NCBI GenBank assembly: GCA_963556145.1
Contig: OY744461.1
Coordinates: 2,170,001-2,234,000, forward strand
Reading direction: 5' to 3'
DNA from: Hygrocybe punicea
Taxonomy: Eukaryota > Basidiomycota > Agaricomycetes > Agaricales > Hygrophoraceae
DNA length: 64,000 nucleotides
Below, in pieces: positions 22,822-50,684 of this stretch (the first letter of the stretch is position 1; each line of letters begins with the position of its first letter). The notes below the pieces were generated by a model. The model was given only the letters and a program-made list of their open reading frames with translations. It did not search any database and was not told where the DNA came from. The position numbers and the translations under genes are program-made.

Positions 22822-23080
22822 ATGCCACACGATATCAGTGGCGAGAACAAGTGCCCAACATGTCAGGCATTCCTCCCAGTCAAACTTGCGAAGCCAGGGA
22901 CACAGGCACCCAACTCTGGCCACCACTACCTTCGTGTAAGTTGGATTGTACTTGGGTCCCACTTTAGCTCACTTCCCATCCAAGTGCGCTTCATGTAAAT
23001 ACTTTTATGCCTTCCCACTTTCTGCGTCTGCCTCACTCCCCTCCCTTACTGTACCCTTGCTGAGCCAACCAGCACTGTCC
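22822..23080 (+). pseudogene. 5' part of a cysteine-rich family gene, split by the 27.6-kb element
   Basis: Exons 22822-22935 and 22985-23080 with a canonical 49-bp intron (GTAAGT...CCAAG). The ATG at 22822 opens a zinc-ribbon-like start: NKCPTCQAFLPV, then after the intron CASCKYFYAFPL and a Ser/Pro/Leu-rich stretch. The reading frame stops being meaningful at 23080, exactly at the ACTGTCC target duplication of the inserted element. It resumes in the same frame at 50685. The family (short Cys pairs, a low-complexity linker, a second Cys cluster, then conserved C-terminal domains) is multi-copy in Agaricomycetes and of unknown function. Cellular role not known. Confidence 0.75.
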
Positions 23081-23581
23081 CACACCTTACAGCATATCTT
23101 TTCCACAAGACATGGCTCAGCCGAGAGGGACAATTCCCACTCTGAGTGGGCCAGCCAATCTCGGCCGACCAATATCTTTCTCCAGGGGAGATGGCTTGGC
23201 CGAGGGGTCTATGTTCTGAGGGACATGAGTTGGCCGAAGCAGGGGGATATATTGGCCAACCGGTCTGGATATTTTGGCTAGCCATGGGAGATGGATTGGC
23301 CGACCGGTCTGGGTATCTTGGCAGGCCATGGAAGATGGATTGGCCGACAGCCCAGGGTAATTTGGCTGGCCATGAAAGGTGGATTGGCCGACATGTCTGG
23401 GTATTTCAGCTGGCCATGGAACATGGATTGGCCGACGGGTCTGGGTATGTCGGCTGGCCATGAAAGGTGGATTGGCCGACGGGTCTCGATATGTCGGCTG
23501 GCCATGGAACGTGGGTTGGCTGACGGGTCTGGGTATGTCGGCTGGCCATGAAACGTGGATTGGCCGACAGGTCTGGGTATG
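23081..23581. repeat. Left terminal module and 44-bp minisatellite of the large element
   Basis: 23081-23245 is the terminal module (CAGCATATCTTTTCC, GGACAATTCCCACT, ATATCTTTCTCCAGG). From there to 23581 runs a tandem array whose 44-bp unit contains GGCTGGCCATGAAAGG and TTGGCCGAC. Because 44 is not a multiple of three, all frames of the array stay open and yield spurious Gly/Trp-rich or Pro-rich ORFs. The array is interrupted at 23581 by the nested palindromic element and resumes at 31481. Confidence 0.9.
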
Positions 23582-25387
23582 GAGCCCTTTCAGCATATCT
23601 TTTCCATGATACATGGGTCAGCCGAGATGGACAATTCCCACTCCAAGTGGGCTGGCTTATCTCGGCCGACCAATATCTTTCTCCAGGGCAGATGGCTTGG
23701 CCGAGGGTTCCATGTTCGGAGAAGCATGGGTTGGCCGAAGCAGAGGGATATATTGGCTGGCCATGGAACATGGATTGGCCGACCTGGCTGGGTATTTCGG
23801 CTGGCCATGGAACGTGGATTGGCCGACGGGTCTGGGTATTTCGGCTGGCCATGGAATGTGGATTGGCCGATCTGGCTGGGTATCTTGGCTGGCCATGGAA
23901 CATGGATTGGCCGACCTGGCTGGGTATCTTGGCTGGCCATGGAACATGGATTGGCCGACCGGGCTGGGTATCTTGGCTGGCCATGGAACATGGATTGGCC
24001 GACTTCCCTGGGTATCTCGGCTGGCCATGGAACATGGATTGGCCAACCAGTCTCGGTATTTCACTTGGCCATGGAACATGGGTTGGCCAAATGGTCTGGG
24101 TATTTTGGCTGGCCATGGGAGATGGATTGGCCAACAGGTCTGGGTATTTAGGCTATGGATTGGCCGATGGTCTGGGTATTTTGGCTGGACATGGAACATG
24201 GATTGGCTGACCTCTGTTCGTTTATTGGCTGGCCATGAGACATGGATTGGCTGACTGTACTGGGTGTAGCCATGGAACATGGGTTGGCGAAAGCTTTGGT
24301 CATATGACATGGCCATAGCACCTGGGTTGGCCAAAGCTCCAGCTACATTGGGATGGCCACAGCTCTAATTACATCAGCTGTCAACATGATATGCATTGGC
24401 CAACACTCAGAATACATTGGCTGGTCATGGCACATTGGTTGGCTGTTCCTAATGGGTCTCTGGCTGGTTGTGGGTCATGGATTGACCAGTGCCAGGGATA
24501 TAATGGCCAGCCATGATACGGCTGACCTTGTGACATAGGGTTAGGGTTTACACCGATAAAATGCAATAAATTCCTTCTCAGACATTAACAGCTTAACATT
24601 ACAACAAGTACTGCTACTGTGTCACAAATGCCTCTGAAAGGATAACAAGCAAGACACCAACGCCATTCAGTCTTGATCTCAAAGGAGGAGCTCTTCTCCT
24701 TCTTGATCAAGACTGACTGACAAAGAAAATACTAACAAAAATTTTGCGAACAAATAACCAAAAATGGATACTGAAATCAACTAAACTAACAATATTACCT
24801 GGTCTCAATGTCACTAAAGGGAGGCTTAAAAGTAATAGTGAGACTTACCTGGTCAACTTTCAATGATGACACCAGGCCCACTACAAGTAGGTTGCCCGGC
24901 AAGGAAATCAGGGGGATTCACCCGCCCTTTCATTCCTGAAGACCTGTACAGTGACAAGCACTCATTTCTGAGGACCAGACACCAACAGTTGGCACGCAGA
25001 GATGCCACAATGTTCATTCAAGTTGAACAGATAACTTCAACAAAAGATACTGTCAGTAATGGGGTAATACAAATTAATCACTCATCTGGATGCAAACATA
25101 CCAAAGAAGATACCTGACGGTGAAAAAGAAGAACATACCACAATAATCAAGTAGTCCTGTGAAGTGAACAGACGTCAGCAACAAAGCCTGAGGAAATCAC
25201 CTACCAGTTAAGACTATGACACTACAGAATCTCTGGTTGTTGCCCGGTACAATAACCAAGGATCCTGTAGTGTCATCAAAAGTGGTAGTGGTGGTTGTGA
25301 GGTAAGGAGAAAATCTCAACCGTGTTTGATGGGCTTGTACTTATTTGTTCATGTGACTTAACGTGTTTGTTGACCACATGTCACAAA

Positions 25388-25427
25388 GTGTGATGTCACG
25401 TTGGGCCGTCCAAACGTTACATCACAC
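25388..25427. repeat. 40-bp palindrome with TGATGTCACGTT core
   Basis: A near-perfect inverted repeat around GGGCC. The same structure lies in the other arm (29283-29322) and, with base changes, in the large element between two genes (47266-47305). It contains CRE-like TGATGTCA/TGACATCA half-sites, so it could be a regulator-binding site or a structural signal. Function not known. Confidence 0.6.
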
Positions 25428-25725
25428 TTGTGACATGTCGCATCTCATCAATCATGTGACCTGTCGCGTTGCATTAATCATGTGACACGTGAGTGGTAAT
25501 AATCATCATATTCCGAGGGCAGGAATCCTGCCCTCGTCTCACTATGTATAATAGGTACAAAATACAATAATAATGATATAACGAGGGCAGGGAATCACCC
25601 TGCCCTCATCTCATTGCTGAGCCACCCCGACGGTCGGGTTCATTACCACCGCTGCTGCTGCCGTTGCTGTTGCCGTTGTCGTGTCTGCTGCTGCTGCTGC
25701 GGTTCATGCTGCCGTTGCCGTTGCC

Positions 25726-25757
<32 letters not shown>

Positions 25758-27171
25758 TGCTGTTGCCGTCGCTGCTGTTGCTGCCGTCGTCGTCGCTGCT
25801 GCTGCTGCTACCGTTGCCGTTGTCATTGTCATGTCTGCTGTTGCTGATGCTGCAGTTCGTGCTGCTGCCGTTGCTGTTGCCGCCGTTGCCATTGCCATCG
25901 CGGCTGCTGCTGCTGTTCACGCTGCTGGTGCTGCTGCCGTGGCCGGTGCGGCTGCTGTTGCCGTTCCCGGTCCCGGTCCCGCTGCTGCTGCCGTTCCCGC
26001 TCCTGGTCCTGGTCCTGGTCCTGGTCCTGGTCCTGCCGCTGCCTCGCCATCTTTGTTGCTGTCCTCATTGTTGTCATTGCCGTCCACGCTGTCGTCATTG
26101 CCGTCCACACTGTCGTCGTTCCTGTGCTTGCTGTCATCGTTGCTGTCCCCGTGGTTGTCGTTCCGGTCCCCATGGTTGTCGTTCCGGTACTCGTGGTTGT
26201 CGTTCCGGTCCCCTGCCGCTGCTGCTGCTGTTCGGGCTGCTGCTGCTCTTGCCATTGCCGTTGCCGTTGCAGGCTTCGCCTCGGCGCAGTAACGACTGCA
26301 AGGCATTAGTAGTACATAAAATAAGCAAAAAATCACTGATGACTTACCGTTGTCATCCTTTTCTTCCTCACCGTCATCCGCGTCTGGGTCTTCGTCGTCT
26401 GGGTCTTCGTCATCGTCGTCCGCGTCCGCATCTGCGTCAACCCTGTCTTTGTCTCTGCCAACCCGGTCTCCATCGTCCGTGCCATCCCCATACCGTTGTG
26501 GATCCCGTCTCCCATTGTCGTCCTCGTTCTCGTTGTTCCAGTCCCCATGTCCGTCATTGCCGTCCCCGTTCTCGTCGCTCCGGTCTGTCATTCCGGTCCC
26601 CATTCCGTTCTCATCGTTGCCGTCCCCCCTCTCTTCGTTCCGGTCCTCGTTGTCGTCGTTCCGGTCCTCGTTGTCGCCGTTCCCGGAACCATGGTTGTTG
26701 CCCTCTTATGGGCCTCGTGTCGTTGGCTGTCGATGTTGATGTGGTAATGTTCACAGTCATCTGACGTGACGTTGCTGGAAAAGACCTAAAAAGTACATGG
26801 AATTAGTTAATAAAAATAAATCAAACAAACTTAAAATGAAACTTAGCCTGGTGCTCTTCCGCAGCCTTGTGTCTGTGATCGTGGTTGCAAAGAAAGAGTG
26901 ACGTGGCTTGAACTCGCGCGAGAATTTCAACCGGCGTTTGCCGATTTCCTAAACGGGGGCCGAATTGCCATATTGGTACAGGTGGCTGGATTTTCTTATT
27001 GCTATTACATGCTGTATAACACCTCAATGGCCAGGGCAAGACCCTGAAGGGATGTAAGTATCCCATACCCACAAGTATGGTAAATTTTGTATTTTATTTG
27101 AGCCTACAGAGAGAGCTATTCACAATGTATTTGAGCCCTCTGCCAAAATTGGACCCTTAAACACCCAACTT

Positions 27172-27271
27172 NNNNNNNNNNNNNNNNNNNNNNNNNNNNN
27201 NNNNNNNNNNNNNNNNNNNNNNNNNNNNNNNNNNNNNNNNNNNNNNNNNNNNNNNNNNNNNNNNNNNNNNN
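27172..27271. other. Assembly gap (100 N) near the palindrome centre
   Basis: Exactly 100 N, the conventional placeholder for unknown size. The last bases before it (CACCCAACTT) match the complement of 27540, and the first bases after it are the complement of 27443-27481. The missing sequence should therefore be the complement of about 27482-27539, near 58 bp. Confidence 0.95.
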
Positions 27272-27952
27272 TTCATTGTTACAATAAGTGCCTGGCAGTT
27301 AGTAGTCCAGTAAATGTGTTGTAGGACAAATGTGTGTGGAACTTCACATTAATAAATTATTGGCTGTTCAATCAAAGTCCCGTTATTTGGATTCAAGTCA
27401 CGCAACTCACAGCTTTACCATTTGTTGGCTACAGCACATTTCCTGGACTACTAACTGCCAGGCACTTATTGTAACAATGAAGCACACATCACCTAGTACT
27501 GCTAGAATTAATTTTAGATTTTCTAGATGTATACTCGCAAAGTTGGGTGTTTAAGGGTCCAATTTTGGCAGAGGGCTCAAATACATTGTGAATAGCTCTC
27601 TCTGTAGGCTCAAATAAAATACAAAATTTACCATACTTGTGGGTATGGGATACTTACATCCCTTCAGGGTCTTGCCCTGGCCATTGAGGTGTTATACAGC
27701 ATGTAATAGCAATAAGAAAATCCAGCCACCTGTACCAATATGGCAATTCGGCCCCGTTTAGGAAATCGGCAAACGCCGGTTGAAATTCTCGCGCGAGTTC
27801 AAGCCACGTCACTCTTTCTTTGCAACCACGATCACAGACACAAGGCTGCGGAAGAGCACCAGGCTAAGTTTCATTTTAAGTTTGTTTGATTTATTTTTAT
27901 TAACTAATTCCATGTACTTTTTAGGTCTTTTCCAGCAACGTCACGTCAGATG

Positions 27953-28881
27953 ACTGTGAACATTACCACATCAACATCGACAGCCAACGACACGAGGCCC
28001 ATAAGAGGGCAACAACCATGGTTCCGGGAACGGCGACAACGAGGACCGGAACGACGACAACGAGGACCGGAACGAAGAGAGGGGGGACGGCAACGATGAG
28101 AACGGAATGGGGACCGGAATGACAGACCGGAGCGACGAGAACGGGGACGGCAATGACGGACATGGGGACTGGAACAACGAGAACGAGGACGACAATGGGA
28201 GACGGGATCCACAACGGTATGGGGATGGCACGGACGATGGAGACCGGGTTGGCAGAGACAAAGACAGGGTTGACGCAGATGCGGACGCGGACGACGATGA
28301 CGAAGACCCAGACGACGAAGACCCAGACGCGGATGACGGTGAGGAAGAAAAGGATGACAACGGTAAGTCATCAGTGATTTTTTGCTTATTTTATGTACTA
28401 CTAATGCCTTGCAGTCGTTACTGCGCCGAGGCGAAGCCTGCAACGGCAACGGCAATGGCAAGAGCAGCAGCAGCCCGAACAGCAGCAGCAGCGGCAGGGG
28501 ACCGGAACGACAACCACGAGTACCGGAACGACAACCATGGGGACCGGAACGACAACCACGGGGACAGCAACGATGACAGCAAGCACAGGAACGACGACAG
28601 TGTGGACGGCAATGACGACAGCGTGGACGGCAATGACAACAATGAGGACAGCAACAAAGATGGCGAGGCAGCGGCAGGACCAGGACCAGGACCAGGACCA
28701 GGACCAGGAGCGGGAACGGCAGCAGCAGCGGGACCGGGACCGGGAACGGCAACAGCAGCCGCACCGGCCACGGCAGCAGCACCAGCAGCGTGAACAGCAG
28801 CAGCAGCCGCGATGGCAATGGCAACGGCGGCAACAGCAACGGCAGCAGCACGAACTGCAGCATCAGCAACAGCAGACATGA
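27953..28881 (+). other. Low-complexity gene-like block in the right arm, mirrored at about 25831-26759 minus
   Basis: A block of CAG/GAC/ACGACA-type repeats contains a textbook intron at 28363-28414 (GTAAGT, branch-like TACTAAT, TTGCAG). Splicing joins an Asp/Glu/Gly-rich part (VDADADADDDDEDP) in frame to a Gln/Arg/Thr-rich part (repeated DQDQDQ, GTTTT). The same arrangement stands in the other arm on the opposite strand with identical translation. All other frames are also open because of the repeats, so coding is not certain. No domain is recognisable. It could be a transcribed remnant of an element gene. Confidence 0.3.
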
Positions 28882-28952
28882 CAATGACAACGGCAACGGT
28901 AGCAGCAGCAGCAGCGACGACGACGGCAGCAACAGCAGCGACGGCAACAGCA

Positions 28953-28984
<32 letters not shown>

Positions 28985-31480
28985 GGCAACGGCAACGGCA
29001 GCATGAACCGCAGCAGCAGCAGCAGACACGACAACGGCAACAGCAACGGCAGCAGCAGCGGTGGTAATGAACCCGACCGTCGGGGTGGCTCAGCAATGAG
29101 ATGAGGGCAGGGTGATTCCCTGCCCTCGTTATATCATTATTATTGTATTTTGTACCTATTATACATAGTGAGACGAGGGCAGGATTCCTGCCCTCGGAAT
29201 ATGATGATTATTACCACTCACATGTCACATGATTAATGCAACGCGACAGGTCACATGATTGATGAGATGCGACATGTCACAAGTGTGATGTAACGTTTGG
29301 ACGGCCCAACGTGACATCACACTTTGTGACATGTGGTCAACAAACACGTTAAGTCACATGAACAAATAAGTACAAGCCCATCAAACACGGTTGAGATTTT
29401 CTCCTTACCTCACAACCACCACTACCACTTTTGATGACACTACAGGATCCTTGGTTATTGTACCGGGCAACAACCAGAGATTCTGTAGTGTCATAGTCTT
29501 AACTGGTAGGTGATTTCCTCAGGCTTTGTTGCTGACGTCTGTTCACTTCACAGGACTACTTGATTATTGTGGTATGTTCTTCTTTTTCACCGTCAGGTAT
29601 CTTCTTTGGTATGTTTGCATCCAGATGAGTGATTAATTTGTATTACCCCATTACTGACAGTATCTTTTGTTGAAGTTATCTGTTCAACTTGAATGAACAT
29701 TGTGGCATCTCTGCGTGCCAACTGTTGGTGTCTGGTCCTCAGAAATGAGTGCTTGTCACTGTACAGGTCTTCAGGAATGAAAGGGCGGGTGAATCCCCCT
29801 GATTTCCTTGCCGGGCAACCTACTTGTAGTGGGCCTGGTGGCATCATTGAAAGTTGACCAGGTAAGTCTCACTATTACTTTTAAGCCTCCCTTTAGTGAC
29901 ATTGAGACCAGGTAATATTGTTAGTTTAGTTGATTTCAGTATCCATTTTTGGTTATTTGTTCGCAAAATTTTTGTTAGTATTTTCTTTGTCAGTCAGTCT
30001 TGATCAAGAAGGAGAAGAGCTCCTCCTTTGAGATCAAGACTGAATGGCATTGGTGTCTTGCTTGTTATCCTTTCAGAGGCATTTGTGACACAGTAGCAGT
30101 ACTTGTTGTAATGTTAAGCTGTTAATGTCTGAGAAGGAATTTATTGCATTTTATCGGTGTAAACCCTAACCCTATGTCACAAGGTCAGCCGTATCATGGC
30201 TGGCCATTATATCTCTGGCACTGGTCAATCCATGACCCACAACCAGCCAGAGACCCATTAGGAACAGCCAACCAATGTGCCATGACCAGCCAATGTATTC
30301 TGAGTGTTGGCCAATGCATATCATGTTGACAGCTGATGTAATTAGAGCTGTGGCCATCCCAATGTAGCTGGAGCTTTGGCCAACCCAGGTGCTATGGCCA
30401 TGTCATATGACCAAAGCTTTCGCCAACCCATGTTCCATGGCTACACCCAGTACAGTCAGCCAATCCATGTCTCATGGCCAGCCAATAAACGAACAGAGGT
30501 CAGCCAATCCATGTTCCATGTCCAGCCAAAATACCCAGACCATCGGCCAATCCATAGCCTAAATACCCAGACCTGTTGGCCAATCCATCTCCCATGGCCA
30601 GCCAAAATACCCAGACCATTTGGCCAACCCATGTTCCATGGCCAAGTGAAATACCCAGCCAGGTCGGCCAATCCATGTTCCATGGCCAGCCAAGATACCC
30701 AGCCAGGTTGGCCAATCCATGTTCCATGGCCAGCCAAGATACCCAGCCCGGTCGGCCAATCCAAGTTCCATGGCCAGCCGAAATACCCAGACCCATCGGC
30801 CAATCCATGTTCCATGGCCAGCCAAGATACCCAGCCCGGTCGGCCAATCCACCTCCCATGGCCAGCCGAAATACCCAGACCGGTCGGCCAATCCATGTTC
30901 CATGGCCAGCCGAGATACCCAGGGAAGTCGGCCAATCCATGTTCCATGGCCAGCCAAGATACCCAGCCCGGTCGGCCAATCCAAGTTCCATGGCCAGCCA
31001 AAATACCCAGACCCATCGGCCAATCCATGTTCCATGGCCAGCCAAGATACCCAGCCCGGTCGGCCAATCCAAGTTCCATGGCCAGCCGAAATACCCAGAC
31101 CCATCGGCCAATCCATGTTCCATGGCCAGCCAAGATACCCAGCCAGGTCGGCCAATCCATGTTCCATGGCCAGCCAAGATACCCAGCCAGGTCGGCCAAT
31201 CCAAGTTCCATGGCCAGCCAAAATACCCAGACCCGTCGGCCAATCCACGTTCCATGGCCAGCCGAAATACCCAGCCAGGTCGGCCAATCCATGTTCCATG
31301 GCCAGCCAATATATCCCTCTGCTTCGGCCAACCCATGCTTCTCTGAACATGGAACCCTCGGCCAAGCCATCTGCCCTGGAGAAAGATATTGGTCGGCCAA
31401 GATAAGCCAGCCCACTTGGAGTGGGAATTGTCCATCTCGGCTGAGCCATGTCTTGTGGAAAGGATATGCTGTAAGGTGTG

Positions 31481-31840
31481 GGGTATGTCAGCTGGCCATG
31501 AAAGGTGGTTTGGCCGACCACACTGGGTATTTCGGTTGGCCATGGAACATGGATTGGCCGATGGGTCTGGGTATTTTGGTTGGCCATGGAACGTGGGTTG
31601 GCCGACGGGTCTCGGTATGTCGGCTGGCCATGGAATGTGGGTTGGCCAACGGGTCTGGGTATGTTGGCTGGCCATGGAACATGGATTGGCCGACAGGTCT
31701 GGGTATGTCGGCTGGCCATGAAAGGTGGATTGGCCGACAGGTCTGGGTATTTTGGTTGGCCATGGATTGGCCAATCCTGGTTAGTATACCGTCAGCCATG
31801 GGACATGGGTTGGCAAATACCATATATTGGCTTGCTGGTC
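31481..31840. repeat. Remainder of the left 44-bp minisatellite
   Basis: The array interrupted at 23581 continues here in the same orientation (GGTATGTCAGCTGGCCATGAAAGG and related units), starting with the second copy of the GGGTATG duplication. It ends about 85 bp before the 3' end of the KDZ transposase gene. Open frames through it are artefacts of the 44-bp period. Confidence 0.85.
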
Positions 31841-31923
31841 ATTCTTGGCAGATGGTTATGGTCCAGTTGGTTAAAAATATATTACTTTCTTCTGTTCAAC
31901 TATATCTTCTCTAATAATATGTA

Positions 31924-34900
31924 TTACTCCATCTTGTTGGAAAAGGCAGTTTCTGCTTGTGCTATCATATTCCTCCACATTACCATTTGTTTTTCCGCAT
32001 AACAGATGTGCCCCCTCAGTCCCAGACCAACTTTGTCATGACGTGCTTCCCATTGCATCTTCTGGTGTTGCAGCCAACAAATCACGTTACCCATTTCTGA
32101 CTTGACGCTTTGCAATTCTTCAGACCACCGATCATATCTGGCCTTGCCACGGAGCCAGTTTACACGATACACTGTATAGCAGTAAGATCTTCCATGAATT
32201 GCTGTAGCAGAACCATTCACCTTCTTGCATCCAATCGTTGTCACCAGTATTATTCCTTTCTTTCCTCCGCCAGATCCAGGGCAGCTTGTGACTCCTCTGG
32301 CCCACTCTATTCTCCTCAAGCATATCACCACTCATCTTGATATCCTCCTGCCTCAACACTTTGAAACGATCCAAAATGTCTGCATTCCCCCCCTAGATTG
32401 ACCAATGCTCGCCGAGCCTGCCTGTAGCTGGTGGCATATTTACCAACCTTTTGCTGGATGGCATGTATGTTGTCCCATGCTCAAGTCTTCTTCTTCTGGC
32501 TGTTTGCTCCACGAACAGAGGTTCGAAAGATTACCATTTTCTCACCCAGTGTCATCCTCAAGTTTTCCAAACAATCGTTTGCTTGGCCCACCCTGAGTTC
32601 CACCTCCTGAGCCACCAAATTTTCCAAACCCAGCCGAGCACATTCCTCCACTCCTAAGGTCGATGGCATTGTGAGTCGGCAATTTTCTGGCCATTCTGCA
32701 ACATGGTCATCATCTTCTTCGTCTACCCCACCCTCCTCATCCACATCCACAATCCAGTCATCAGCAGTGGGATCATAATTGACCAGATTACACTCATCCA
32801 CATCTTCACCAAGTATTCCATGTATTTTTCTGTGGAACGAGTCGATCCAAGACTGCAGTCTATTTCGCCAATCCTCCAGATTTGCCTTGTCTGTGAAACT
32901 GCCCGTTTTTTGAACAGCACGAGCCGTTGTTTTCAGAGTATTCCTGTAGGGTAAACAAATGTCAAAGAGACGATCGATGAGAATGAGGATACATCCTACT
33001 GTGCTTGTTCTATGTTTATTCCTTCATTTAAGATGGTCACCCGACCAGCCATTACATCTTTGGGATTCCCTGTCATCAGTCTCAACCTGATCTCAGCCTG
33101 CAATGGTGCTGGTGAAACATCATTACCGTGTCCAAAACACCAACACTTTACAAGACAAACCTTTCTCCATTCTGACGTCGAATACCCTCAAGTAGTCACC
33201 ATGGAAATCCATTGCCCTTCTTTCTTCTTCCTTCCACTCCGCCAGCACTTGCTCATCCACAGTTTCAGAAAGCTCCTCAAAGGCTGCCTTCATTTCCTGC
33301 ATTCCATCTACTGCTTTATCATATCGTTTCAACAAAGACCGAACTGTGTGACAGCTATGGTGATGATATGTATTGATGACATGCCTATGAATCACCTACC
33401 CATTCTTACCAACTTCTTCCAATTTGAATCCCTCATAAGGTCATCCAAGATCTCACATCGTTGGGATTTTGACATGAAACGAATAAAACTGGAAATCTTG
33501 TTGATGATAGCCCACAGTGTCTCCAAAATTTCACCATCCTGCTGACCAGCACCACGAACGAAGTTGAGACTGAATAGGGCAAAACACTTGGCAACATGTG
33601 CACCAAGATGAAACTTGCCCACAGCCCCAATGATCTCAAGCGCTTCAGGGAGAGTGAGGTGGTCGGAATTGGAAACCCTTTTAGCAAAATTGATCAGCCA
33701 ACTGCAGGCAATATCATATTCCACCAGTGCTTGGGTGATACCACTGTGGCACAGCCTATTGAGAGTGTTGCATATCAAATAATCAACGTTCATGTGTCTG
33801 GTGCAGGCTCTTTAATAAATTTGTCACGATTCATAGCTCAAAATACATGACTAACCGTTCACCCTTCTGGAAGTCGACGACACTGTGGGGTACAAAGCAA
33901 CCATGCTTGGCACATGCACATGCACCGATGCCAGTAGCGTATAAGTTATGACGATTGGTGTTTGCTTGGTTGACGGCCTTGTGATTGGAGCACTGTGACC
34001 TCTGATACATGATCATTGATTTAGCATTCACGAAATTCACAATTCGATAAATACCTCTTTGGACTCCAGGGAAGCTGCCAGATGAGCACGATAAGGTGCA
34101 TCCTCAACCATATAGCCTTGTCCATCAATAAGCCCAACGTCGTCATCAGGCTTCCGCATGTTAATCTGCTCAGCTTTGAAATTGCCGTCGACGACGATGC
34201 TGGGCCTGTAAAGCCACCTGTTTCCCTGTTTGGTGTGGAACTACATGAAAGCTGATCAGAATGACCCACTGATGCGGTCTATCCATCCAGTTCTGCGGAA
34301 GATTTATCCCTGGCTGGGGACATGCAGGGCAAAACAATGCCAGATCGCCATTACCAGGCTCCCTCTCAGTGTCATGCCCAAAGCCGAATCGTTTCTTGAG
34401 GTGCAAGTATCGCCACTGTCTTGACACCCTCATTAGCTCACGATAACGATCCTGAACACCATAACTCAGTACTCCATTCTGTATGCACAATGTAACAAAA
34501 CAAGTAGTATATCACGAACCGGCAATGTATCTGGAAATGCATTGGAAGACAGTCTCCTTAACTTGTTATAAAAGTTGTTTGCAGACGTTTTGCACTCCAT
34601 CGAATCAATGTAGAAATGATCCAGGAGCTGGAAAGTGAATGCTGATGATGGCCGTTTTGCTGTTGCAGGATACAAATGCATTCGAAGTAGTTGAATATCT
34701 CGAGTGGGGGCATCTGGGCAGGAGCACCATCGGATTCGACGTCGGTAAATTCCATTCGTATGAGTGACAGTTATGATATCTTCCTTGGCGTGAACTGCCA
34801 AAGCCGGATCCAAATCGTCCTCCTCACCACCACCTGACATAAGAACATCATGCAGATATGTATCTTCGACAGATGGCTGGGGGCCATCTTTTCTGTATGA

Positions 34901-35488
34901 CGGACAATTGCCTCCACCATGGCCAAGACGCATGACCAGGCCAATCGTATTAAGGTCATGTTTCAGGAAACATCTGCCATTCCATATCTCAATTCTGTGG
35001 AATGGATTATGAATGTGTGTCTGCAAACAACCACGCTGGCAGAACGAAGGGCAACCATAGCAATCAGGGCAACGAATGGTGATATCAGCCATCAGACATG
35101 ACTGGCATGTAACATCGGAAGGGGGGGCCTCAGATGATAAGAGTTCGGAGAGGTATTGCTTGTGAATCGCTTTCCAGGCTTCCATTTCATCATTCTGTGT
35201 CTAATTGACATGCAATCAAAATCAAGTCGTACAGATAATAGTTGTGTCAACCTTTCCACGCTTATTGCGATGTCTCCGTGTCTGAGGGTCCTCCTCTTCC
35301 ACAAACGATGTTGAGGGCAAGGGAAGATCTTCACTCCTATGTGATTGTTTTACAGGACTTGGCGGACGAATAACTGGATGAGCCTTGACTGTCTTTCCAC
35401 CTCGTTTCTTTTCCACCACCATAAATTCAACCTCTCTGGCAAATTCCTTTTTTTTTCCCGACTGGGAAATGACTTTTGATTTCGGCAT
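31924..35488 (-). pseudogene. KDZ-family transposase with CxC2 zinc cluster, nearly intact
   Basis: Ten exons can be joined: 35488-35252, 35200-34520, 34451-34266, 34225-34055, 34001-33856, 33797-33396, 33354-33161, 33108-33000, 32943-32221 and 32171-31924. They total 3097 nt, one more than 1031 codons plus stop. Order of parts: basic N-terminus; CxC2 cysteine cluster (CQSC...CPDCYGCPSFCQRGCLQTH); YIDSMECKTSANNFY; GNGDLALFCPACPQPGINLP; SIVVDGNFKAEQINM; the core with YDIACSW (Asp near residue 502), GKFHLGAH and GAGQQDGEILETLW; and the tail ALPWIW-like, RVNWLRGKARYDRW, YAEKQMVMW. The enzyme would move the element in the nucleus. Two lesions: TGA at 32481-32483 where the family has an Arg-like position (CGA to TGA), and one extra G in the G7 run at 32387-32393. 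The 40-bp intron at 34226-34265 is the least certain. Confidence 0.9.
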
Positions 35489-37460: not shown

Positions 37461-37469
37461 ATTGATGTG

Positions 37470-40009: not shown

Positions 40010-41570
40010 ATGTATGCCAACAGAATTCCCTCAAAGAATGCACAATCCAAGGCAATGGAAGCCTCGCTTTCCGTCAACATGAAAACAAAGGATTGTGGTC
40101 TCGCTCCAAATCTAAAGAAACATATGTGGACGAGGCTGAGAAGAATCCTCTCAAACACTACATCGTATTATAGGAAGTCGGGCATGCGCCCTCCGAAGTC
40201 TCCTGTAGAGGAATGCAAACGGCTGAGGTCAGATCCATGCTGCTTCAATGTCATATCTTACATGTTTTGTAGATCACGTTTGATGATGCTGAGGGATCAG
40301 CTTCCAGTTAGCAAGGTCTTGGGAGATTCGGCCCCAGATTGCGAAACATTCTCCAAGTCGGAAATGGTCTCAGAATCTGAACTGGAGAGGGTTCTCCTCA
40401 CTGTGGCAGCCGCGATTTTGAACCCTAGTACGTTGCTGCCATGAAAGTCGGCATATTTAGACTGACATCTTGCCTCAAAGTAATTTTGCCCTTGGATGCG
40501 AATAGACTGGCAAATCGAGTGAAGAATATCAAGGACACTTCGGATGCTGACAATGAAAACCTACTCAGGTTTTTTCAGGAGATTCACATTGGACATGTGA
40601 ATGAACCAGCTACAGTAATCGACACGTGTGGTTCAATTTTGGTCTGGTATCTACCTGATGTTGTAACTCCAAGACGTATTGTGAGTCACTTGCCCCCCAG
40701 AAATATGGTTTTTGACAGTACCCACTGCGACACAGGAGGAATTGAATGTCAGTGCTGAAATGATAATCGAAATTCTGGAAGAATCCTATTCAGAGTCCCT
40801 CAAAAAACTTGAGAAAGGGAAAGATCCGTAATGGAGGAAAGATCCAAACATTTTCTTTCCACCTCCAAACCCACGATTTCACCCAGGATCAGTGGATTTC
40901 GCCGCAGCATGGTTTGCTCAGGGTAGAGAGGTAACACCTTTAGTTAGTCATCTGTTTTACATGAGCTGACCACCTGTTTTTTCAGCGACTTACCGATAGG
41001 TTGATCACGTTGACAACTCTTCGAACAACTGAAGCCACCATGTGGATGGCTGCAATTGAACCCAGCAAGCTGATCTTCAACGCAATTACTGCGTTAACCC
41101 ATCAGTCATTGTACACAGCTGGCCTTCTGGCTGTGACGAAAATCCGGGACGGCGAAACGATCGAGAACGTGGAAACACACGAAAATGCTAAGGAGTGGAC
41201 ATCTGTTTACACTGGAATTGCCGTTATCGTTAACAGGATTACAGCTCGACACAGAGATGCTGGAGGGTGTCCAGAATGGTATGATTTGCTGGCAAGTTGT
41301 GGGACACATACGAACGCGGAACTAGCCATCCCTGAGTTGGATGCTACGTTCTCTTATTCGCCAGGAACCATCATCGAAATTTGTGGCAAGGTTCTCAGTC
41401 ACAGTGTAGGCAGATGGGAGGGCGGTGAAAGAATATGCATGGCGCATTATATGCGAAACATGGTACATGACCGTCTCAACATTGACAAGCCCACCTGGAG
41501 CCGACACAATGTGTTTGCAAGGGAGATGAATGCCGAGTTTTGGGCATCACAGGAATGGAGATGGAATTAG
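40010..41570 (+). pseudogene. TET/JBP-family 2-oxoglutarate/Fe(II) dioxygenase
   Basis: Four exons in agreeing phases: 40010-40427, 40481-40680, 40736-40930 and 40986-41570; 465 residues. After an unrecognised N-terminal part comes PATVIDTCGSILVWYLPD, then the segment ending FAAAWFAQGRE, then the double-stranded beta-helix. Catalytic residues are complete: HRD (His360, Asp362; codon at 41250), distal His410 in VLSHSV and Arg420 in GERICMAHYMR for 2-oxoglutarate, with the fungal FSYSPGT motif between. Family members oxidise methylated bases in DNA (5-methylcytosine in TET, thymine in JBP); fungal TET/JBP genes are known to travel with KDZ elements. One TAA at 40829-40831 breaks the frame before the catalytic core; a 14-nt GTAATGGAGGAAAG there is too short to be an intron. 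ATG at 40010 is chosen because its frame stays open to the first donor. Confidence 0.87.
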
Positions 41571-41961
41571 CTATTGTGCCAAGGGAGATATCATCCTAAT
41601 GTAAAAGTACGATGGCTACCGTTGCATGCTTTGTACGACTGTAGTCAGAAACCTCTGTGGAACTAAATCTCGTTATCCTCATTCACGGACGACAAAGGCC
41701 TATGAGTTTCAACTAACAGATAGCTAGACAGTGTTAGACAGTGTTCGGAGAATTTCCATGGCTTTACATTGATAACTCTGTCACATTGACAACTCAGTCA
41801 ATTCGAAATGTGTACTTAAATGTGGCAATTCACATGATGTGGTCACACGTGATCACAGTAAACCATGACGCATCATTTTTTTTTACCTTCTGCACCCTTA
41901 TCATCTAGCCTCAGCCTCTCTTGAATTGCTCTCAGATACACTCGAATTGAACATTTTGGCA

Positions 41962-44147
41962 ATGTCGTCATCAGCAAGCACCTCGGCGCCGTCAATCGCT
42001 TCTCTACATGCGTCTGTCATGTCTGGCAGTAATTTCCGAAGCATGAATGTGTTCCAGGACTTCCCGTGGGTCAATGGCACGCCTCTTGCTGAAGATTCAC
42101 TTGAGAAGGCTATCGTAACCTTAATTGGCAATCAGTCTGCTCTAGGAAACACACTGTCCACCTTGGCTGTGATGGTGCGTCAAATCTCCCACCTTGTAAC
42201 ATTGACGGTCAACTTGTCTGCTAGGCCCTGGCAAAGCAATTGGATTATGTGAATCCCACAGGTGAAATCTCACGTAAAGCCCAAACCATCCAAGAATACC
42301 TCTCTGCTGATGGCTCTGCTATGCGTGATGTGGCAAGGTGGACTACTGTGTACCGGAATGACCTCCTGGTAGCGGCTCACTCAATCCTTCGCTATACCTT
42401 GCTCGATAAGCTCATGGACGCTGTTGGGTTGCCTCGTCATCCAAGTTTCAAAGTAATTTGGAGATCAGCGAAACCAGAGATGAGCGAGAAGTTGACCAAG
42501 GTGAGTTCACCATTCACATTTGGGCAGACGTTTTAAGTTGACGTTTGCACACCGTCTTGAAGCTCTACAAATTTCTGAGAGACTGGAGTAAGCCGATCAC
42601 GAAGCTTCGTATGACATGCAAAAGTCTATTAATCACGCAACAAGATCAAGAAGTGGTGGGTGTTTCAGCCGTGGCAGTGCCGCAGAAAGTGGTGTCCAGT
42701 ATGGACACCATCCCTATCTTTGCAGTCGCTCTCCCAGCACACTTGACACCAGCCCAAAAAGAAGTAGAAATGAACATCCGGATCCTTTACCGTGCATCTG
42801 TCAACCTCGAATCCTCCGACATCAACCAGATCCTCCTCAATCTAGAGCTTCTTGCATTCTCATTCACGTGGTTTGGCCAGGTATGTGACGTATGTCCTAT
42901 ATGAAACGTGTGTCAGATTTTGTACAAAAACAGGGCAACTCATATGTAGACTGCGACTTCACAACATGGGTGGAGAAGCTACAGAGGTTGGGATTGCGTT
43001 ACAATCACATTACGCCTGCCGCAAATAAATAATTCACATGGTTTCAGGATGGCCAAGAGTGTTGATCTACTGTTGCAAGACTCATTTGTCAATGCCCTCA
43101 CCACCAAGTCTTTCGGAGGTTTAATGTATGATCGGATGAGAAATCTATTCCACCTAAGCCTCACACTGTCACCCATAATTACTCTTCTCCCATGACGTTT
43201 CAATCATGAATCTCATGCACGGCCATCTCTCATGGCAGTGAGTCCATTATTTGTGCCAACTTGGACGTAGTTGACATAAGGAAAAGATCACGTTTGCCTT
43301 GGGCAATGAAAGGCCTCCATTCCTTGCCAAAACGGAGAGGGCGCTTTGGAGGGCCATTACAAGAATATGTTTAGGATCTTCGGCGATGCAGGAGCTGAAT
43401 GTATTCCTCCAAGAATACAATTTGTTGGAGGACAGCGTCCAGGGAACGGAACAGGACTTCAGTTGGTTTTGTTTTGACAGTACGCCGCCTGTCTCTACAT
43501 TTATCGCTGGGACTGACAACAGATGTTGCAAGATAAGGAAGTGGATGACCTGACCAACTCTGCTAGTCAGCTTACGGTGGCAACAAAACAAAATGTTCCA
43601 ACAGACCCCAAGGCAAAGAATGACAAGCCTGCATCAGGCAACCCTCTGTCCAGCGATGATGAACCGCTTCAATTGAAATTAACAAGGAAGAAGAGGGGTG
43701 GACCATCGAAGGAGCTTGCTTCAGGTGGACAGAGCTCCATGTTGACCCGAAGCCAGGCCAAAATGTTGGACAAGGTTGGGGACTCTTCGAAAGGCAAGGA
43801 GAAGCAGAAGGCAGAGAAAGTCCAGAAGGAAGAGAAAGTCGTGGTTGCGCCGGGGAGGTCCTATCGGAGGAAGAAAAGATCCACTCGCTGGTCGACAAGA
43901 AGTTATCCCAAGTCCAAGAAACGTGATGATCTTGAGGATGAAGATGACGATGATGACGAGGATGACTATAAGAAAGCGCCAGAGAAAGTGAACATGATCA
44001 TCGACCTTACCAGAGATGTAAGTGATTCAAGAACGTGTCATTTGTCATGAATGAATATTTTGATAGGATTATGGGGAACCTGATTTGCTCAGCCGTCCAG
44101 CACCCATTGTGTGTCTTTTGTTGTTTGATAACGTGCCACCCCACTGA
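41962..44147 (+). CDS. Unknown protein of the large element, basic/acidic C-terminus
   Basis: Starts ATG at 41962 (MSSSASTSAPS). Exons I can place are 41962-42174, 42225-42500, from 42563 to about 42880, and the last two, up to 44017 and 44067-44147; junctions between 42880 and 43523 are uncertain. No known domain was recognised. The middle is mostly helical and hydrophobic (NIRILYRASVNLESSDINQILLNLELLAF). The end has LTRSQAKMLDKVGD, Lys-rich runs (RRKKRSTRWSTR, PKSKKRDD) that look like nuclear localisation signals, and a DDDDDEDD acidic stretch, then MIIDLTRDDYGEPD, which resembles a SUMO-interacting motif (IIDLT followed by acidic residues). It sits between TET/JBP and the JmjC-like gene on the same strand. 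A chromatin role is only a guess. No certain inactivating lesion was seen. Confidence 0.6.
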
Positions 44148-44186
44148 TGATTCATAAAGCGAGCATCAGAGGGTGTTCATCTCACG

Positions 44187-47086
44187 ATGTATGATGGTGA
44201 CGCTGTACACGAACCCGTTGAACATGTGCACTATTCACCATCCGTCGTTGTACGCTGATGTCTGATTTTTGTACCGTTTGATTGTTAACTGGTAAGCACG
44301 ATACAGGCAAAAGTGGAACATGCATTGTTGCGGGAAACATATGAAATGATCCAATCCAGTTACATTGATGGGGTTCCTCCATATTGGCTGCCCAGTGCAA
44401 GAGAACAAATGTATGATCCTCATGCATCATGTGTGTTCGTGGTGGAATGGAACATCTTCAAGTCGATGGATGCTGCAACAATTCAAGGAATCTTTCATCA
44501 TCGTCACATCCTCGTGCTCAATGCCCCTGTAGAAACAGTGGAGTTTGATAGGGAAGGTTTGGAGACATTGGGGTCTTTGTCGTCCATTCGTTCAGTGCAA
44601 GGTCCATTTCCGGAGCGATGTCTGGGCATAGTGACTAAAGTGCCTTTGTTAGTTGCTGAATTGCGATTGGTGCCTAATATCGAGAATATGAACAAACCTG
44701 GCACATTAGAGACATTATATCAGCTTGCGCTTGACCCTGACAACGAAAGGGTTTTCAATTTCCTTGACCTTCCCATGGGTCATATGACGTTGGACCCACC
44801 TCCAAAATTTCGGTGAGCAACCTTGTTATGAAGATCGAACACGAGATTTACCTGTCTATTCGTGAAAAGGTCCTTTTCATCATCTGAGGTTGCTTGGCAC
44901 GAAACCCGCGGCTGACCGGGGTTTGTCCGCGAGCAGCCTTTAAACGACGATTTGGCTTGGGGAACGGCAGCGACAGCTCGAGCCATTTCTTGGACACACG
45001 TAGATGATGATGGCTTTGGCACGGTGGTTATTGTCAGGACTGGCGCAAAGTACTGGGTCATCATGAGGCCTTGAAGGGATGCCGAATGGGATCGCAAGGC
45101 GGGCAATCTTGCGACTAACAAGGCCTATCCTCAGGAGTGGGAGCCGAGAAAACATAGTGGGAAAGGCTTGTGGGAAGCAGAAGGATTACTGCTCACAAAG
45201 GGTTCAGTGCTGTAAGTGGGAATATATTTCGTGACAACTCGGATGTGTGCTGAAACACACAGTTACATGAGGCCATGCACCCCACATTATGTCCTCGGTG
45301 TGGAGCACTCCATTGTGAATGGGCGTCATCTCTATGTGACGTCAACTATACGGGATACCTGTTATGGGATTATCCATACTTTCGTGATGAGTCATACCAT
45401 CACAAACGCGGAGCATAATGTGACACGTACATTTCTGTGCCGACTTCTCACCATGTGGATGGAGTACTTCACAGGGAACCACGAATCATCATGTGAGCTA
45501 CTTTGGGCAAGGTTTACAAATTCCTGAAGATTAAAATGCTCACTGCACAGCTACTGTCTTCACCAAGTCTCATATGCCCAAGATCGAAACTGAAGATGGC
45601 TTCCTCGACCTTGTGATTGTGGGAAACCTGATCGAGCTTGCGGATATCATCAACAGGAAGTTCTACACCCATACCATATCAGCTGACATGCATGAGGAAC
45701 AGAATATTGCACGATGCAGATATAGACGTTTCCAAATCTGGTTTGCGGAACATTTTGTTGTCTTCATGGAAGACCACTGGATCAGCCCCTCTTACATTTT
45801 CCAACGAAGTCTTTTGGAACTATCTGCTGTGATTGTTGGGTATAAATGGGACAAGGATGGGGTTGTGAAGGCACCAGCACATTGCACAGCGAAAGCTGTT
45901 GAGTCAGCGGTCCGCCGACATTTTCAAAACGATTGGCCAGATTTGGTGCCAAAGCTGAATGAGCTGCTTCAGATCCCACCATCGGAATTCTTCTGGACCG
46001 GCCCCAAAATACACATTCAGACCCGTCCAGTGGAACCCATCAGTCCCATTCTTGTTGAATGCTTAGATTTTCCACCTCATCCAATTCTGCTCGTCAACGC
46101 AACTACTGGTGAAGGCGAGGTACAGGATGACACAGATACACGGGAAAAGGCGAAAGACAATGAGCGCGACAAAGGGGAGGGCACCGATGGTGAGGAAGAG
46201 GCGGATGATCCATCTAGGAAGGTGGGAGATTTAGTGGATGCAGCTGGCGAAGAGGTAGCCACAGAGGAAAACCAGGATCCACCTGCAACGGTTGGATGTT
46301 CAAACGACATGGCTGTGGACACTGAGAGGGAAGAGGATCCACCTGTAACGGTGGGAAATTCAGCCGACATGGCTGGGGAAGATGCGGGAGAAGAAATGGA
46401 TGTCGCTGGCCCGAATGAGGAGGATCCACCTGAGCAGGTGGGAAATTCAAATGACGCAGCTTCGTGGAATGAGGATGGTCTAATCATGCCCCTGGGTATG
46501 TCAAATGAGGAAGATGTAGACCGTGATGAGGGGAAGCAGCAGGAAAAGAAGGGGGGGGAGGAGGGCGCGGTGCAGGGCAAGGGGGTGGAGGCGGGGGAGG
46601 TGCAGGAGGAGGGGGAGGAGGAGGAGGAGGGGGAGGAGGAGGAGGAGGGGGAGGAGGAGGAGGAGGGGGAGGAGGAGGAGGAGGGGGAGGAGGAGGAGGA
46701 GGGGGAGGAGGAGGAGGACAGGGAGCTGCAGGACGAGGAGGGGGAGGAGGAGGAGGAGGGGGAGGGGGAGCTGCAGGAAGAGGAGGAGGAGACAGATGGG
46801 GATGGGGCAGAGGAGGATCGAAATGAGATGGTGGGGAAGTTAAATGCCCAGAGTGTGGACAGTGACGAGGGAGAGGATGACGATCAAATGGACATCTCAT
46901 CTGGCAGTGATGCAGTGTATAATGATTTCGATGGATCACCCCAACCCCCGACACCCCCTGTGAAACGTCCTCAGAGGGAAGACTCGGGTACGATAAATTG
47001 CCTCAACAGCTTGTATATACACTGATATGATCATTCACACAGATTCACCAATACGTTCCACAGACCTGAAACGCCGTCGTAAGTAG
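44187..47086 (+). pseudogene. JmjC-like 2-oxoglutarate dioxygenase with long acidic tail
   Basis: Six exons: 44187-44246 (least certain), 44307-44812, 44870-45211, 45263-45492, 45551-46987 and 47043-47086. They total 2619 nt, 872 residues. N-terminal part has FDREGLETL; the cupin part has LAWGTAATARAISWTHVDDDGFG with His232 and Asp234 as iron ligands, GAKYWVIMRP, then MRPCTPHYVLGVEHSI with His311 as distal ligand and TSTIRDTCYGIIHTFV. This is the layout of the JmjC-like proteins expanded in Agaricomycetes. Classical JmjC enzymes demethylate histone lysines; the substrate here is unknown. The tail has three DPPxxVGxSxD-type repeats (about 46270-46460), a pure Glu/Gly run (46600-46790) and a basic KRRRK end. 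Two in-frame TGA codons (44913-44915 and 45072-45074) each fit CGA to TGA; both fall in or next to the catalytic domain. Confidence 0.8.
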
Positions 47087-47305: not shown

Positions 47306-47397
47306 TGGTGACATGTGACGTTGGACCGTCTTGACACAAGTCTTATATATTTATGATTTATTCCACATATCACCTTTTTAGGCACATTCAACAAAGC

Positions 47398-49851
47398 CTA
47401 TTTCCGCCATGTAGAACGTCGCAAGGGTTGACTGCTTGTGGTAATGCAAATTGTGAGCTGCATCCCCACAAATGGGATAGCTTTACCTCGCATTTTTACC
47501 AGCATTTCTTGAGCTGTCCAACTTCCCTGGGCGTCTTTGTTGTGCAACATCACTCTCCCGTGCCTCGTTTGTCTCCCTCTCCCATGCCTCTCATGCCTCC
47601 CTCTCCTGGGCGTCTCGTGCCTCTTTCTTCCTGGACTCCTCCTGGCCCTTTCGTGCGTCCCTCTCCTGTGCCTCTCGTGCCTCCCGTTCCGCCCTCTCCC
47701 GCGCCTCTCGTGCCTCCCTGTCCTGTGCCTCTCGTGCCTCGCGTGCCTCCCCTTCAGCCCTCTCCCGCGCCTCCGTGCCACCTTCTCCTGGGTGTCTCGT
47801 GCCTCTTTCTTCCTGGCCTCCTCCCGGCCCTTTCATGCATCCCTCTCCTGTGCCTCTCGTGCCTCCCGTTCTGCCCTCTCCCGCGCCTCTCGTGCCTCCC
47901 TGTCCTGTGCCTCTCGTGCCTCGCGTGCCTCCCCTTCAGCCCTCTCCCGCGCCTCTCGTGCCTCCCTCTCCTGGGCCTCTCACGTCTCCCGCTCTTGTAC
48001 TTCTTGTAACTGTCTTGCCATCTCTCGGTTCTGTGCTGCTACCCGTTCTGCTTGCTCCTTTTGCTTTGCTTGTCTCTCCATCTTCTTTTTCGTACACAGA
48101 AGCTTCAATGTCGATGTATCGTCATCCATCTCGCTGTCGCCACCACGTCCATCAAAGCTACCACTACTTGCACTCTCGTCACTCCAACTATCGTCGCCCT
48201 CTTCGCTACTGACTGCTTTCTGTTTTCCCTTGCTGGAATTGGTGGCATTTTCTGTTTTCTTCTTGGGGTGGACTGTCTTTAATGCTGGAACATTCGATTT
48301 GGATCTGCGAGGTCCGATAGCATTCGATTGTGCAGCTCCCATAGCACTCGATTGTGCAGCTCCGGCAGGAATAGATGTCGTTTCCCTACTGGAGTTTGAT
48401 GGCGCCGAACAATCGGTCCTGGCCAAAGCAGCAGCAGCATGGAACTTCTTCTTTTTTTGCACGAATGCATTTGGTGCTCGCTGGTCGGTCTTCAGGACGG
48501 TTTTAAATCGGAATGGTTTTTCACCGAGTTTCTGCCGTTGCAACCAAAATTGGTGGACGGTCCGAAGTTCATCGAGTTTCATTTTCCATGGTTCCTGTAG
48601 TTCTACGTGAGAGGGAAAGTAGATGTCCTCGATGTATTGGTTTCGATTTTGTCCAATTTTTCCCCATGGAACAGCGACGACGCTGTTGTTGCACATCTGA
48701 CCTTAAAATGAATATGAGTACAGTAAGCTTGGCCAACGTCGAGGTACGTACGATATGACATGGTCATCAGTGATCTAAACATGTTTCTTACATCGACCAA
48801 TGACATAGTTGACACATTCGGTACCATAGGAAAACCATCCTCATCGATCTCAAGCTTGAACGGCAGGCTTTTGTCATATCTGGTCATTGGACCACCATCA
48901 TCGTCTTCACTGTCAGTCTTCGCTCCATCGGATTCATCTGAAACACATTACATGGGAAAGATGGAACAATGGCTAATCGTACCATCATGATTAAAAAGGG
49001 ACCCCAAATGTTCATCCCATTTGGTCCCAATGTCATCCCCGTTATTTTTGAAGACGCTGATGAACTTCTTGTGTACCGGGGCCGGTGTCTCGAACCTCAC
49101 AGGAAGGGAAGATAAGTACGTGATTGACACAAAGCAGGAATCGACCCACTTTCCTTTGGTTACAGTCCCATCTTCGTCTTCATATCCCACCAACATGAAT
49201 ATTTTTACTCCCATCTGCTCATCTATGTCCTTCATAAACTTCATCGCCGTCTTACCGAAATCTTTTGCTGCTCGGCTGGATAAGGTAGAAGATTAGCATC
49301 ATGCAGACGAAAGAAGATTATTAGTACCGTCATTTGACTTCCAAGGGTGGACCTTGCTGGTTCCAGGCATTGGCAAGAGCTTCAAATTCTTGTTTTTTCT
49401 CTTCGGTCAAGGAACCGTAAATATCACTCCATGCTTTGCCATAGTGCTTGATGTAGCCAGGCTTTCCTCCGGTTTCTCCAGACAGCTCCACCGTCCTAGC
49501 GTCGATTTCCTTGGTCATCTTTTCTCTTGTAACCAACCTTGCATTCCACTTCTTTGTATATTTCGGAGCATCCTCAGTGTCGCTCTCCAATTTTGACCAA
49601 TGATTGTGGTACCAAGTTTGAATTTTCTGTATTCATGGTATAATGCTGTTAGGCTTATCTGAAGGGTAGTATTAGAATATACAGACCTGTTGCATATTTG
49701 GGGGCCATTGTGTGTTGGTTTGTTGTGCCGATTTTTTTAAAAGTTTCCTGATCCCTTTCAGGACACGAATACAATCTTCACCAGTGGATCTCCTAAAATC
49801 AGGATAACCGTCCTCGAGGATCTTAGTAAATTCTGGGGTGATCCACTTCAT
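47398..49851 (-). pseudogene. Unknown protein with Glu/Ala/Arg coiled-coil tail
   Basis: ATG at 49851 opens MKWITPEFTKILEDGYPDF, followed in later exons by KYTKKWNARLVTREKMTKEID, WNQQGPPLEV, MKFMKDIDEQMGVKIFMLVGYEDEDG, YDKSLPFKLEIDEDGFPMVP and VAVPWGKIGQN. The WNxQGPP motif and overall order recall a protein family that is multi-copy in Agaricomycetes, of unknown function. A Lys-rich, Ser/acidic region follows, then a long EREAREAQEREAR-type coiled coil encoded by a minisatellite (about 47530-48000). The frame is broken by TGA at 47980-47982 and 47833-47835, both CGA to TGA, and by a 1-nt deletion near 47775. The gene is convergent with the JmjC-like gene and is the last gene before the right terminal repeat. 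Confidence 0.65.
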
Positions 49852-50223
49852 TTAGGCAAAAACTGAGGAGAATGAAGGCAAATGTCGTTGTCTGGAACAA
49901 AGGCAGAACGTCGTTGTCCGGAACAATGGAAGAATGCCTCGTGGTGAACATGAGGTGATGACAAATCACGTGATTGATGGCAACAAATAGCAATGTGGAT
50001 TACAAGTAGATGACTCAGGGGATTGCAAGTCGGTGCAGGATGTGATTAGGAGAATATGATGAATTGTGAATATTGATAAATTCCAGAACACAAGGATAGA
50101 GGAGCAAGTACCAAATCTGTGGCACATGGCAAGGGGTGGGTAAGAGTCCAAAGATGTAAGGTGGGTATGTTCAGAGCAGGCTGAGTGAACAGATACAACC
50201 CACCTGTTGCATTTGTGGCAACA

Positions 50224-50677
50224 CTGTTCCATGGCCAGCCAAAATACCCAGACCTGTTGGCCAATCCACGTTCCATGGCCAGCTGATATACCCAGCCAGG
50301 TCGGCCAATCCATGTTCCATGGCCAGCCAAAATACCCAGACCCGTCGGCCAATCCACGTTCCATGGCCAGCCGAAATACCCAGCCAGGTCGGCCAATCCA
50401 TGTTCCATGGCCAGCTGAAATACCCAGACCCATCGGCCAATCCACCTTTCATGGCCAGCCAAGATACCCAGCGCAGTCGGCCAATCCATGTTCCATGGCC
50501 AGCCGATATATCCCTCTGCTTCGGCCAACCCATGCTTCTCCGAACATGGAACCCTCGGCCAAGCCATCTGCCCTGGAGAAAGATATTGGTAGGCCGAGAT
50601 AAGCCAGCCCACTTGGAGTGGGAATTGTCCATCTCGGCTGACCCATGTATCATGGAAAAGATATGCTGAAAGGGCTC
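50224..50677. repeat. Right 44-bp minisatellite and terminal module of the large element
   Basis: 50224-50500 is the same 44-bp array in inverted orientation (CCATGGCCAGCCGAAATACCCAG). 50500-50677 is the terminal module ending GGAAAAGATATGCTGAAAGGGCTC, followed at once by the second ACTGTCC. The module is closer to the left end of the nested palindrome (23582-23760) than to the outermost left module (23081-23245). Confidence 0.9.
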
Positions 50678-50684
50678 ACTGTCC

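Follow-up and report, generated by a model that had tools for sequence, protein, structure and literature searches.

A TET-bearing KDZ transposon and its palindromic relative in a probable three-level transposon nest of Hygrocybe punicea

KDZ transposons that carry a TET gene are thought to counter DNA methylation in mushrooms, a role that has not been experimentally validated (Kojima 2025, PMC12730594). According to the passages of that article on Laccaria, TET+ Kyakuja elements lack inverted repeats, begin with CA and end with TG, and produce 7-bp target duplications; the CA..TG ends are reported for two Laccaria Kyakuja families and are not known to characterize Kyakuja in general. Duplications of 8 bp are given there for Zisupton and a Dileera family (PMC12730594). 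In this study, we analyzed a 64,000-bp window of the Hygrocybe punicea genome (assembly GCA_963556145.1, contig OY744461.1, C1:2170001-2234000; coordinates without a contig are window positions). The genome comprises 92.2 Mb in 42 contigs, and all genome-wide counts come from this one genome. A first-pass annotation had described a single 27.6-kb KDZ element with exact boundaries, inserted in a cysteine-rich gene. We conclude with high confidence that the locus consists of three nested DNA transposons: an outermost one bearing a CxC6 cysteine cluster, a 19.7-kb KDZ element within it, and a 7.9-kb palindromic relative within the latter. The assignment of the middle element to KDZ is nearly certain, and it fits Kyakuja in most, not all, of the tested respects. 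TET-bearing KDZ elements with 7-bp duplications were already known as Kyakuja; the new part is the palindromic derivatives and a possible constraint on the pairing of left and right ends.

Three nested insertions

The outer KDZ element lies on the plus strand at positions 23081-50677 and is 27,597 bp long as found, or 19,698 bp without the element nested in it and 19,691 bp if one nested 7-bp repeat is also removed. The 7-bp target duplication ACTGTCC is present on the left (23074-23080) and right (50678-50684), directly outside the ends reported in the first-pass annotation. The left tip (L, CACACCTTACAGCATATC, 23081-23098, plus strand) and the right tip (R, GAGCCCTTTCAGCATATC, 50660-50677, minus strand) each consist of nine bases followed by CAGCATATC. 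The 44-bp minisatellite that had been noted at both ends is likewise there: the left array as called (23251-24154) crosses the left boundary of the nested element and continues at 31481-31766, and the right array spans 50225-50510. An 8-bp duplication for the KDZ element was rejected; the repeat happens to reach CACTGTCC at this site, but the eighth base is generally unshared in other pairs.

The first-pass annotation had predicted that the reading frame is kept when the insertion is deleted together with one repeat, and had proposed looking for an empty site with one ACTGTCC in related strains or species. A 472-nt query without the insertion has full-length 98% matches at C3:5073385-5073856 and C39:4005161-4005632, uninterrupted and with a single ACTGTCC each, so the prediction holds. 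The empty sites, whose flanks meet where predicted, are two paralogs of the same genome rather than loci of related strains, and neither outcome that the annotation had named as a refutation was observed. The flanks joined without the insertion read in frame as ...SQPALS-STHGAGDRCIHPN..., and the frame across the uninterrupted junction is open for 292 amino acids at the two paralogous loci.

The joined frame of the cysteine-rich gene stands, but the gene itself is part of a further DNA transposon, present in three copies that each have an 8-bp duplication, and a disrupted host gene was rejected for this reason. This outermost transposon occupies positions 22640-54900, has inverted ends matching at 25/30 positions, and measures 4,657 bp once the KDZ insertion and a single copy of its 7-bp repeat are subtracted. 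Its target duplication, CCATTGAA, lies at 22632-22639 and 54901-54908, and an open reading frame (ORF) with a CxC6 cysteine cluster (PF18721, E=3.3e-23) is located at 53088-53627 on the minus strand. The window copy and the two 98% paralogs (L125/L126) have an identical left boundary and differing flanks, which indicates that the insertion target is itself mobile. By eye, the paralogs have the exact 8-bp duplications AAGGATTG and GAACCCAG, so that all three copies have an 8-bp duplication; approximately 1.07 kb of the window copy is absent from both paralogs.

The third level is a 7,899-bp palindromic relative on the minus strand at 23582-31480, within the left minisatellite of the KDZ element, its R tip starting at 23582 and its L tip ending at 31480. 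It is flanked by its own 7-bp duplication, GGGTATG (23575-23581 and 31481-31487), and removal of the nested block with one GGGTATG restores the phase of the 44-bp repeat (by eye). The left arm (23727-27171, plus strand) is 98.8% identical to the right arm (27540-30983, minus strand) over 3,445 bp; a run of 100 N (27172-27271) lies immediately inside the left arm, and a 44-bp minisatellite of 17.2 units (30556-31313) lies on the right side. The exact ends and KDZ identity given in the first-pass annotation are therefore retained, and its single element is replaced by one of 19.7 kb with a nested element of 7,899 bp.

We propose that the outermost transposon, with its inverted ends and CxC6-type cysteine cluster, inserted first, duplicating the 8-bp CCATTGAA. 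The 19.7-kb TET-bearing, Kyakuja-like KDZ element then entered at ACTGTCC, creating the 7-bp duplication, and the 7.9-kb non-autonomous palindromic relative, which has the same L and R tips, finally inserted in reverse at GGGTATG within the left minisatellite. For the KDZ element, cut-and-paste insertion is well supported. The likely mechanism is that the KDZ transposase pairs one L with one R tip, a scheme in which we infer the strand chemistry.

Two tip types and their duplications across the genome

The 18-nt inverted terminus described in the first-pass annotation is borne out for its core at both ends, but its nine "variable" bases are of two sorts, one marking L (CACACCTTA) and the other R (GAGCCCTTT), and close variants of either were few among 38 partly overlapping loci. 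Four of these outer nine positions are diagnostic for L versus R; farther in, bases 10-25 and a large part of the ~150 bp that follow are inversely shared between the ends. When 24 distinct L ends were compared with 23 distinct R ends, the six diagnostic columns all fell within the outer 28 bp. A tree split with a support of 0.999 contains 21 of the 24 L ends and no R ends; the remaining three L ends group on the R side.

The tip core CAGCATATCTTTTCCA has 122 matches in the genome versus 0 for the reversed control, and tips with at most one mismatch number 106 for L and 151 for R (controls, 0). The pairing set consisted of 201 tips: the first 100 of 106 L, the first 100 of 151 R, and one further L included by hand. 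Among the matches listed, 51 L/R pairs are convergent and no more than 60 kb apart, compared with eight convergent same-type pairs; 49 of these 51 L/R pairs were checked for 7-bp duplications, which were exact in 35, matched at 6/7 in eight, and matched at 3/7 or less in six. When the flanks of 47 pairs were deliberately mis-paired, a match of 6/7 or better arose in 7 of 2162 comparisons. Chance is excluded by the core matches (122 versus 0) together with the duplications (43/49 versus 7/2162), and further copies with these ends and 7-bp duplications, which the first-pass annotation had suggested looking for, do exist. Two of the 43 positive pairs have one R end in common, and hence there are at most 42 distinct elements. 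A local duplication is suggested by the L tips at C2:2977174 and C2:3006817, which have an identical left flank and both pair with the R tip that ends at 3013273. Of the eight same-type pairs, C1:257123-265309 and C8:4074390-4093765 have no duplication, their flanks matching at 3/7 and 4/7 by eye; in the other six, both ends (five pairs) or one end (one pair) already belong to a duplicated L/R pair. No clear sequence motif was found in the 35 exact 7-bp duplications.

Copies flanked by a duplication are between 124 bp and 53.9 kb long: 10 of the 43 pairs are 5.5-8.9 kb, 17 are about 18.4-23.6 kb, and 9 are 25-54 kb. The smallest (L069, C7:3419101-3419224) contains hardly more than the L and R ends and has an exact GTCTGCA duplication. 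Four further full copies of 18.5-19.8 kb, which belong to the 17 in the 18.4-23.6 kb class and were chosen for fitting the fetch size, are colinear with the outer element at 95-98% identity, with indels of no more than ~0.7 kb and minisatellites of varying length. Long-block pairwise identity among the five full copies is 97.2-98.3%.

Palindromic relatives, rival explanations, and unequal ends

The nested copy belongs to a group of palindromic non-autonomous relatives, which have mainly their ends in common with the full element. Twelve other small copies (2.6-8.9 kb) were read, and all except L100 have their own 7-bp duplication matching at 6/7 or more. Near-identical arms are found in L099, L102, and L105 (99.1-99.5%), as in the nested copy, and the arms of L106 and L107 reach 96%; neither L105 (99.5% over 2,286 bp) nor L107 (96.3% over 2,225 bp) contains N. 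Among the matches listed, the arms of L100, L101, L103, and L104 have diverged to 70-84%. In a 2.2-kb arm segment, identity within a copy is 99.9-100% in the nested copy, L099, L102, and L107 (only ~1 kb in L107) and 99.6% in L106 (partial), whereas copies of the main group match one another at 95.0-99.1%, with the top values coming from partial arms. The within-copy value of 95.8% for L105 reflects a left arm that misses part of the segment and two windows at 75-81%. In a sliding comparison with L100 and L103, the arms of the nested copy resemble the R-type arm in their outer parts (99-100%, against 84-88% for the L-type arm) and the L-type arm in their inner parts (79-99%, against 44-84% for the R-type arm). 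This switch from R-type to L-type fits an exchange between arms or between copies, and either form may be ancestral. Six-frame protein comparison of the palindrome arms with the full element gave similarity in several frames and thus no clear sign for or against coding.

The outer tips and ACTGTCC, taken by themselves, are compatible with one undivided 27.6-kb transposon whose left end is complex and whose inner tip pair is an internal duplication. We regard this as scarcely credible: the inner R and L tips have their own exact 7-bp repeat, excision of the block with one such repeat brings the minisatellite back into phase by eye, the block is absent from all four of the other full copies (18.5-19.8 kb), and similar blocks exist independently as the small copies with their own duplications (11/12). 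Giant transposons known as Starships capture cargo, variable host genes lying between constant ends. A cargo-capturing giant transposon of this kind, with different host genes in each copy, would accommodate the wide size range of the duplicated copies and the gene regions of the 19-kb element that have no Pfam match, but we consider it very improbable. The four ~19-kb copies (of 17) are colinear except for the small indels, evidence against variable cargo among elements of this size; variable cargo was rejected for these copies, and the "many cargo genes" of the first-pass annotation is misleading for a class in which all four other copies have the same colinear content. In one large copy of 39.7 kb (L012, C1:2122267-2161985), the L tip is broken after 33 bp by ~1.3 kb of other DNA, which speaks against cargo capture and suggests that later insertions contributed to the extra length.

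For the near-perfect palindromes, an assembly artefact in which one arm was duplicated across a gap is also unlikely, if somewhat less so than cargo capture. Runs of 100-200 N do occur in 4 of the 10 copies of 6-9 kb (nested, L099, L102, and L106), and three of these four rank with the most perfect palindromes. On the other hand, L105 and L107 have long arm matches without any N, the tips of the palindromic copies remain L and R, and the nested arms switch from R-type to L-type, with L099 and L105 matching the R-type side at 98-100%, a pattern that repeated independent errors would not produce. We therefore keep to three nested transposons, the innermost very probably a true palindromic relative, while three observations weigh against this interpretation or its Kyakuja component. 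Six of the 49 L/R pairs have no in-register 7-bp duplication (C1:5217597-5225779 has 6 bp, one base off); the colinearity rests on ~19-kb copies, and the 25-54-kb copies of the family may hold larger or variable content; and the right end in the copies read is ...GGGCTC (GGGCTT in two tips), unlike the TG of the Laccaria Kyakuja described in PMC12730594.

All 43 pairs with a duplication keep one tip of each type, L and R, in their outermost 18 bp. From this we infer a need for one L and one R tip, for which the palindromic relatives serve as a natural experiment: their inner arms can be near-identical, yet their tips are L and R. An unequal-ends rule for KDZ transposition, comparable to the 12/23 pairing in RAG recombination, is thus conceivable, but we put it forward tentatively and as somewhat less probable than its absence, because for the 43 pairs the statement covers 18 bp instead of 28 and depends on the selection of L/R pairs, which were those systematically checked and whose copies share descent. 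Conversion of one tip into the other may simply be rare, instead of both types being required. No account of end recognition by KDZ transposases was found in the passages of the KDZ literature consulted. The genome offers tens of exact-ended copies, a 124-bp copy made up almost wholly of two tips, empty sites, and palindromes with identical arms but unlike tips, and together these make a rule of end recognition testable with small synthetic elements.

Gene content and comparison with known systems

The core exons of the KDZ transposase are located at 33410-35488 on the minus strand (PF18758, E=5.6e-46; CxC2, PF18803, E=3.8e-26). The splice model was made by hand, includes one intron of only 25 bp, and omits the 3' part (down to ~31924), and we make no claim of intactness. 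A CxC-type cysteine cluster (CxC2) is N-terminal to the KDZ domain, as expected for the KDZ superfamily. The catalytic exon of a TET/JBP dioxygenase (PF12851, E=3.2e-13) lies on the plus strand at 40965-41567, and its best solved relative is CcTET (7vpn, E=1.8e-19). The dioxygenase is of the AG type, as read by eye from the alignment, in which the HRD motif is conserved along with the G and D positions that PMC12730594 considers in CcTET; two of the four other full copies have one stop each in this exon. The dioxygenase would probably oxidize methylated cytosine and so relieve silencing, a role taken from PMC12730594. Two further genes, a partly acidic, low-complexity one (ORFs at 41869-47025, plus strand) and a second one (ORFs at 47980-49852, minus strand, start at 49852 by eye), are uncharacterized, and four ORFs of each were scanned without a Pfam match.

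Upstream of the TET exon, a ~150-bp segment is present in three tandem copies (38893-39739, plus strand). This conserved segment also occurs in most palindromic relatives: it was found in 12 of the 13 small copies, nested copy included, at 73-85% identity, twice in 11 of the 13, and often with GTAAGT directly after it, having been seen in the arms of L099-L107, L109, L110, and the nested copy. The segment has no Rfam match at the gathering threshold; the sole match in the window is a eukaryotic small-subunit rRNA fragment elsewhere (16112-16624, plus strand), which covers only model positions 33-595 of 1831. Also outside the element, an HMG-box ORF is located at 6493-7797 on the plus strand, and a ~1-kb segment at ~55410-56450 has inverted ends (GGCACGGCACGGGTA / GTACCCGTGCTGTGCC) and apparent CTCCTGGC flanks by eye, which we take to resemble a hAT-type miniature element.

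With the TET+ Kyakuja of Agaricomycetes, as described in PMC12730594, the 19.7-kb element shares the KDZ transposase, the AG-type TET/JBP dioxygenase, the 7-bp duplications, a left end beginning with CA, and, at least in the outermost nine bases, an L and an R tip that do not mirror each other. It differs from them in that much of the first ~170 bp and the 44-bp minisatellite are inversely shared between its ends, and in its palindromic non-autonomous relatives; the string "palindrom" occurs once in the main text of that article, where it concerns the borders of TET genes. No report of palindromic KDZ derivatives was found in the titles and abstract openings of the best-ranked open-licence literature. 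Zisupton and Dileera belong to the same KDZ transposase group, but their duplications are 8 bp instead of the 7 bp found here, and Zisupton has terminal inverted repeats (PMC12730594).

The Cryptococcus elements KDZ1-KDZ3, whose mobility has been demonstrated, likewise combine a KDZ transposase with a cysteine cluster (PMC12810828). They differ in their size of ~9-11 kb, inverted repeats of 139-241 bp, CxC1 rather than CxC2 cluster, and duplications of 8 bp (KDZ1) or 4-8 bp (KDZ2 and KDZ3), and the passages of PMC12810828 that describe them mention no TET gene. In their long inverted arms, the palindromic relatives resemble the foldback-type elements Tetris and Galileo (PMC4079207, PMC2775673). 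Tetris is non-autonomous and has tandem repeats within its arms, which are possibly homogenized (PMC4079207), and arm-to-arm differences within single copies have been tabulated for Galileo (PMC2775673). By analogy with such foldback elements (PMC4079207), the minisatellite arrays may serve as extra transposase-binding sites. However, Tetris and Galileo are Drosophila elements with other transposases (PMC4079207, PMC2775673), whereas in the H. punicea relatives the tips differ even though the inner arms can be identical.

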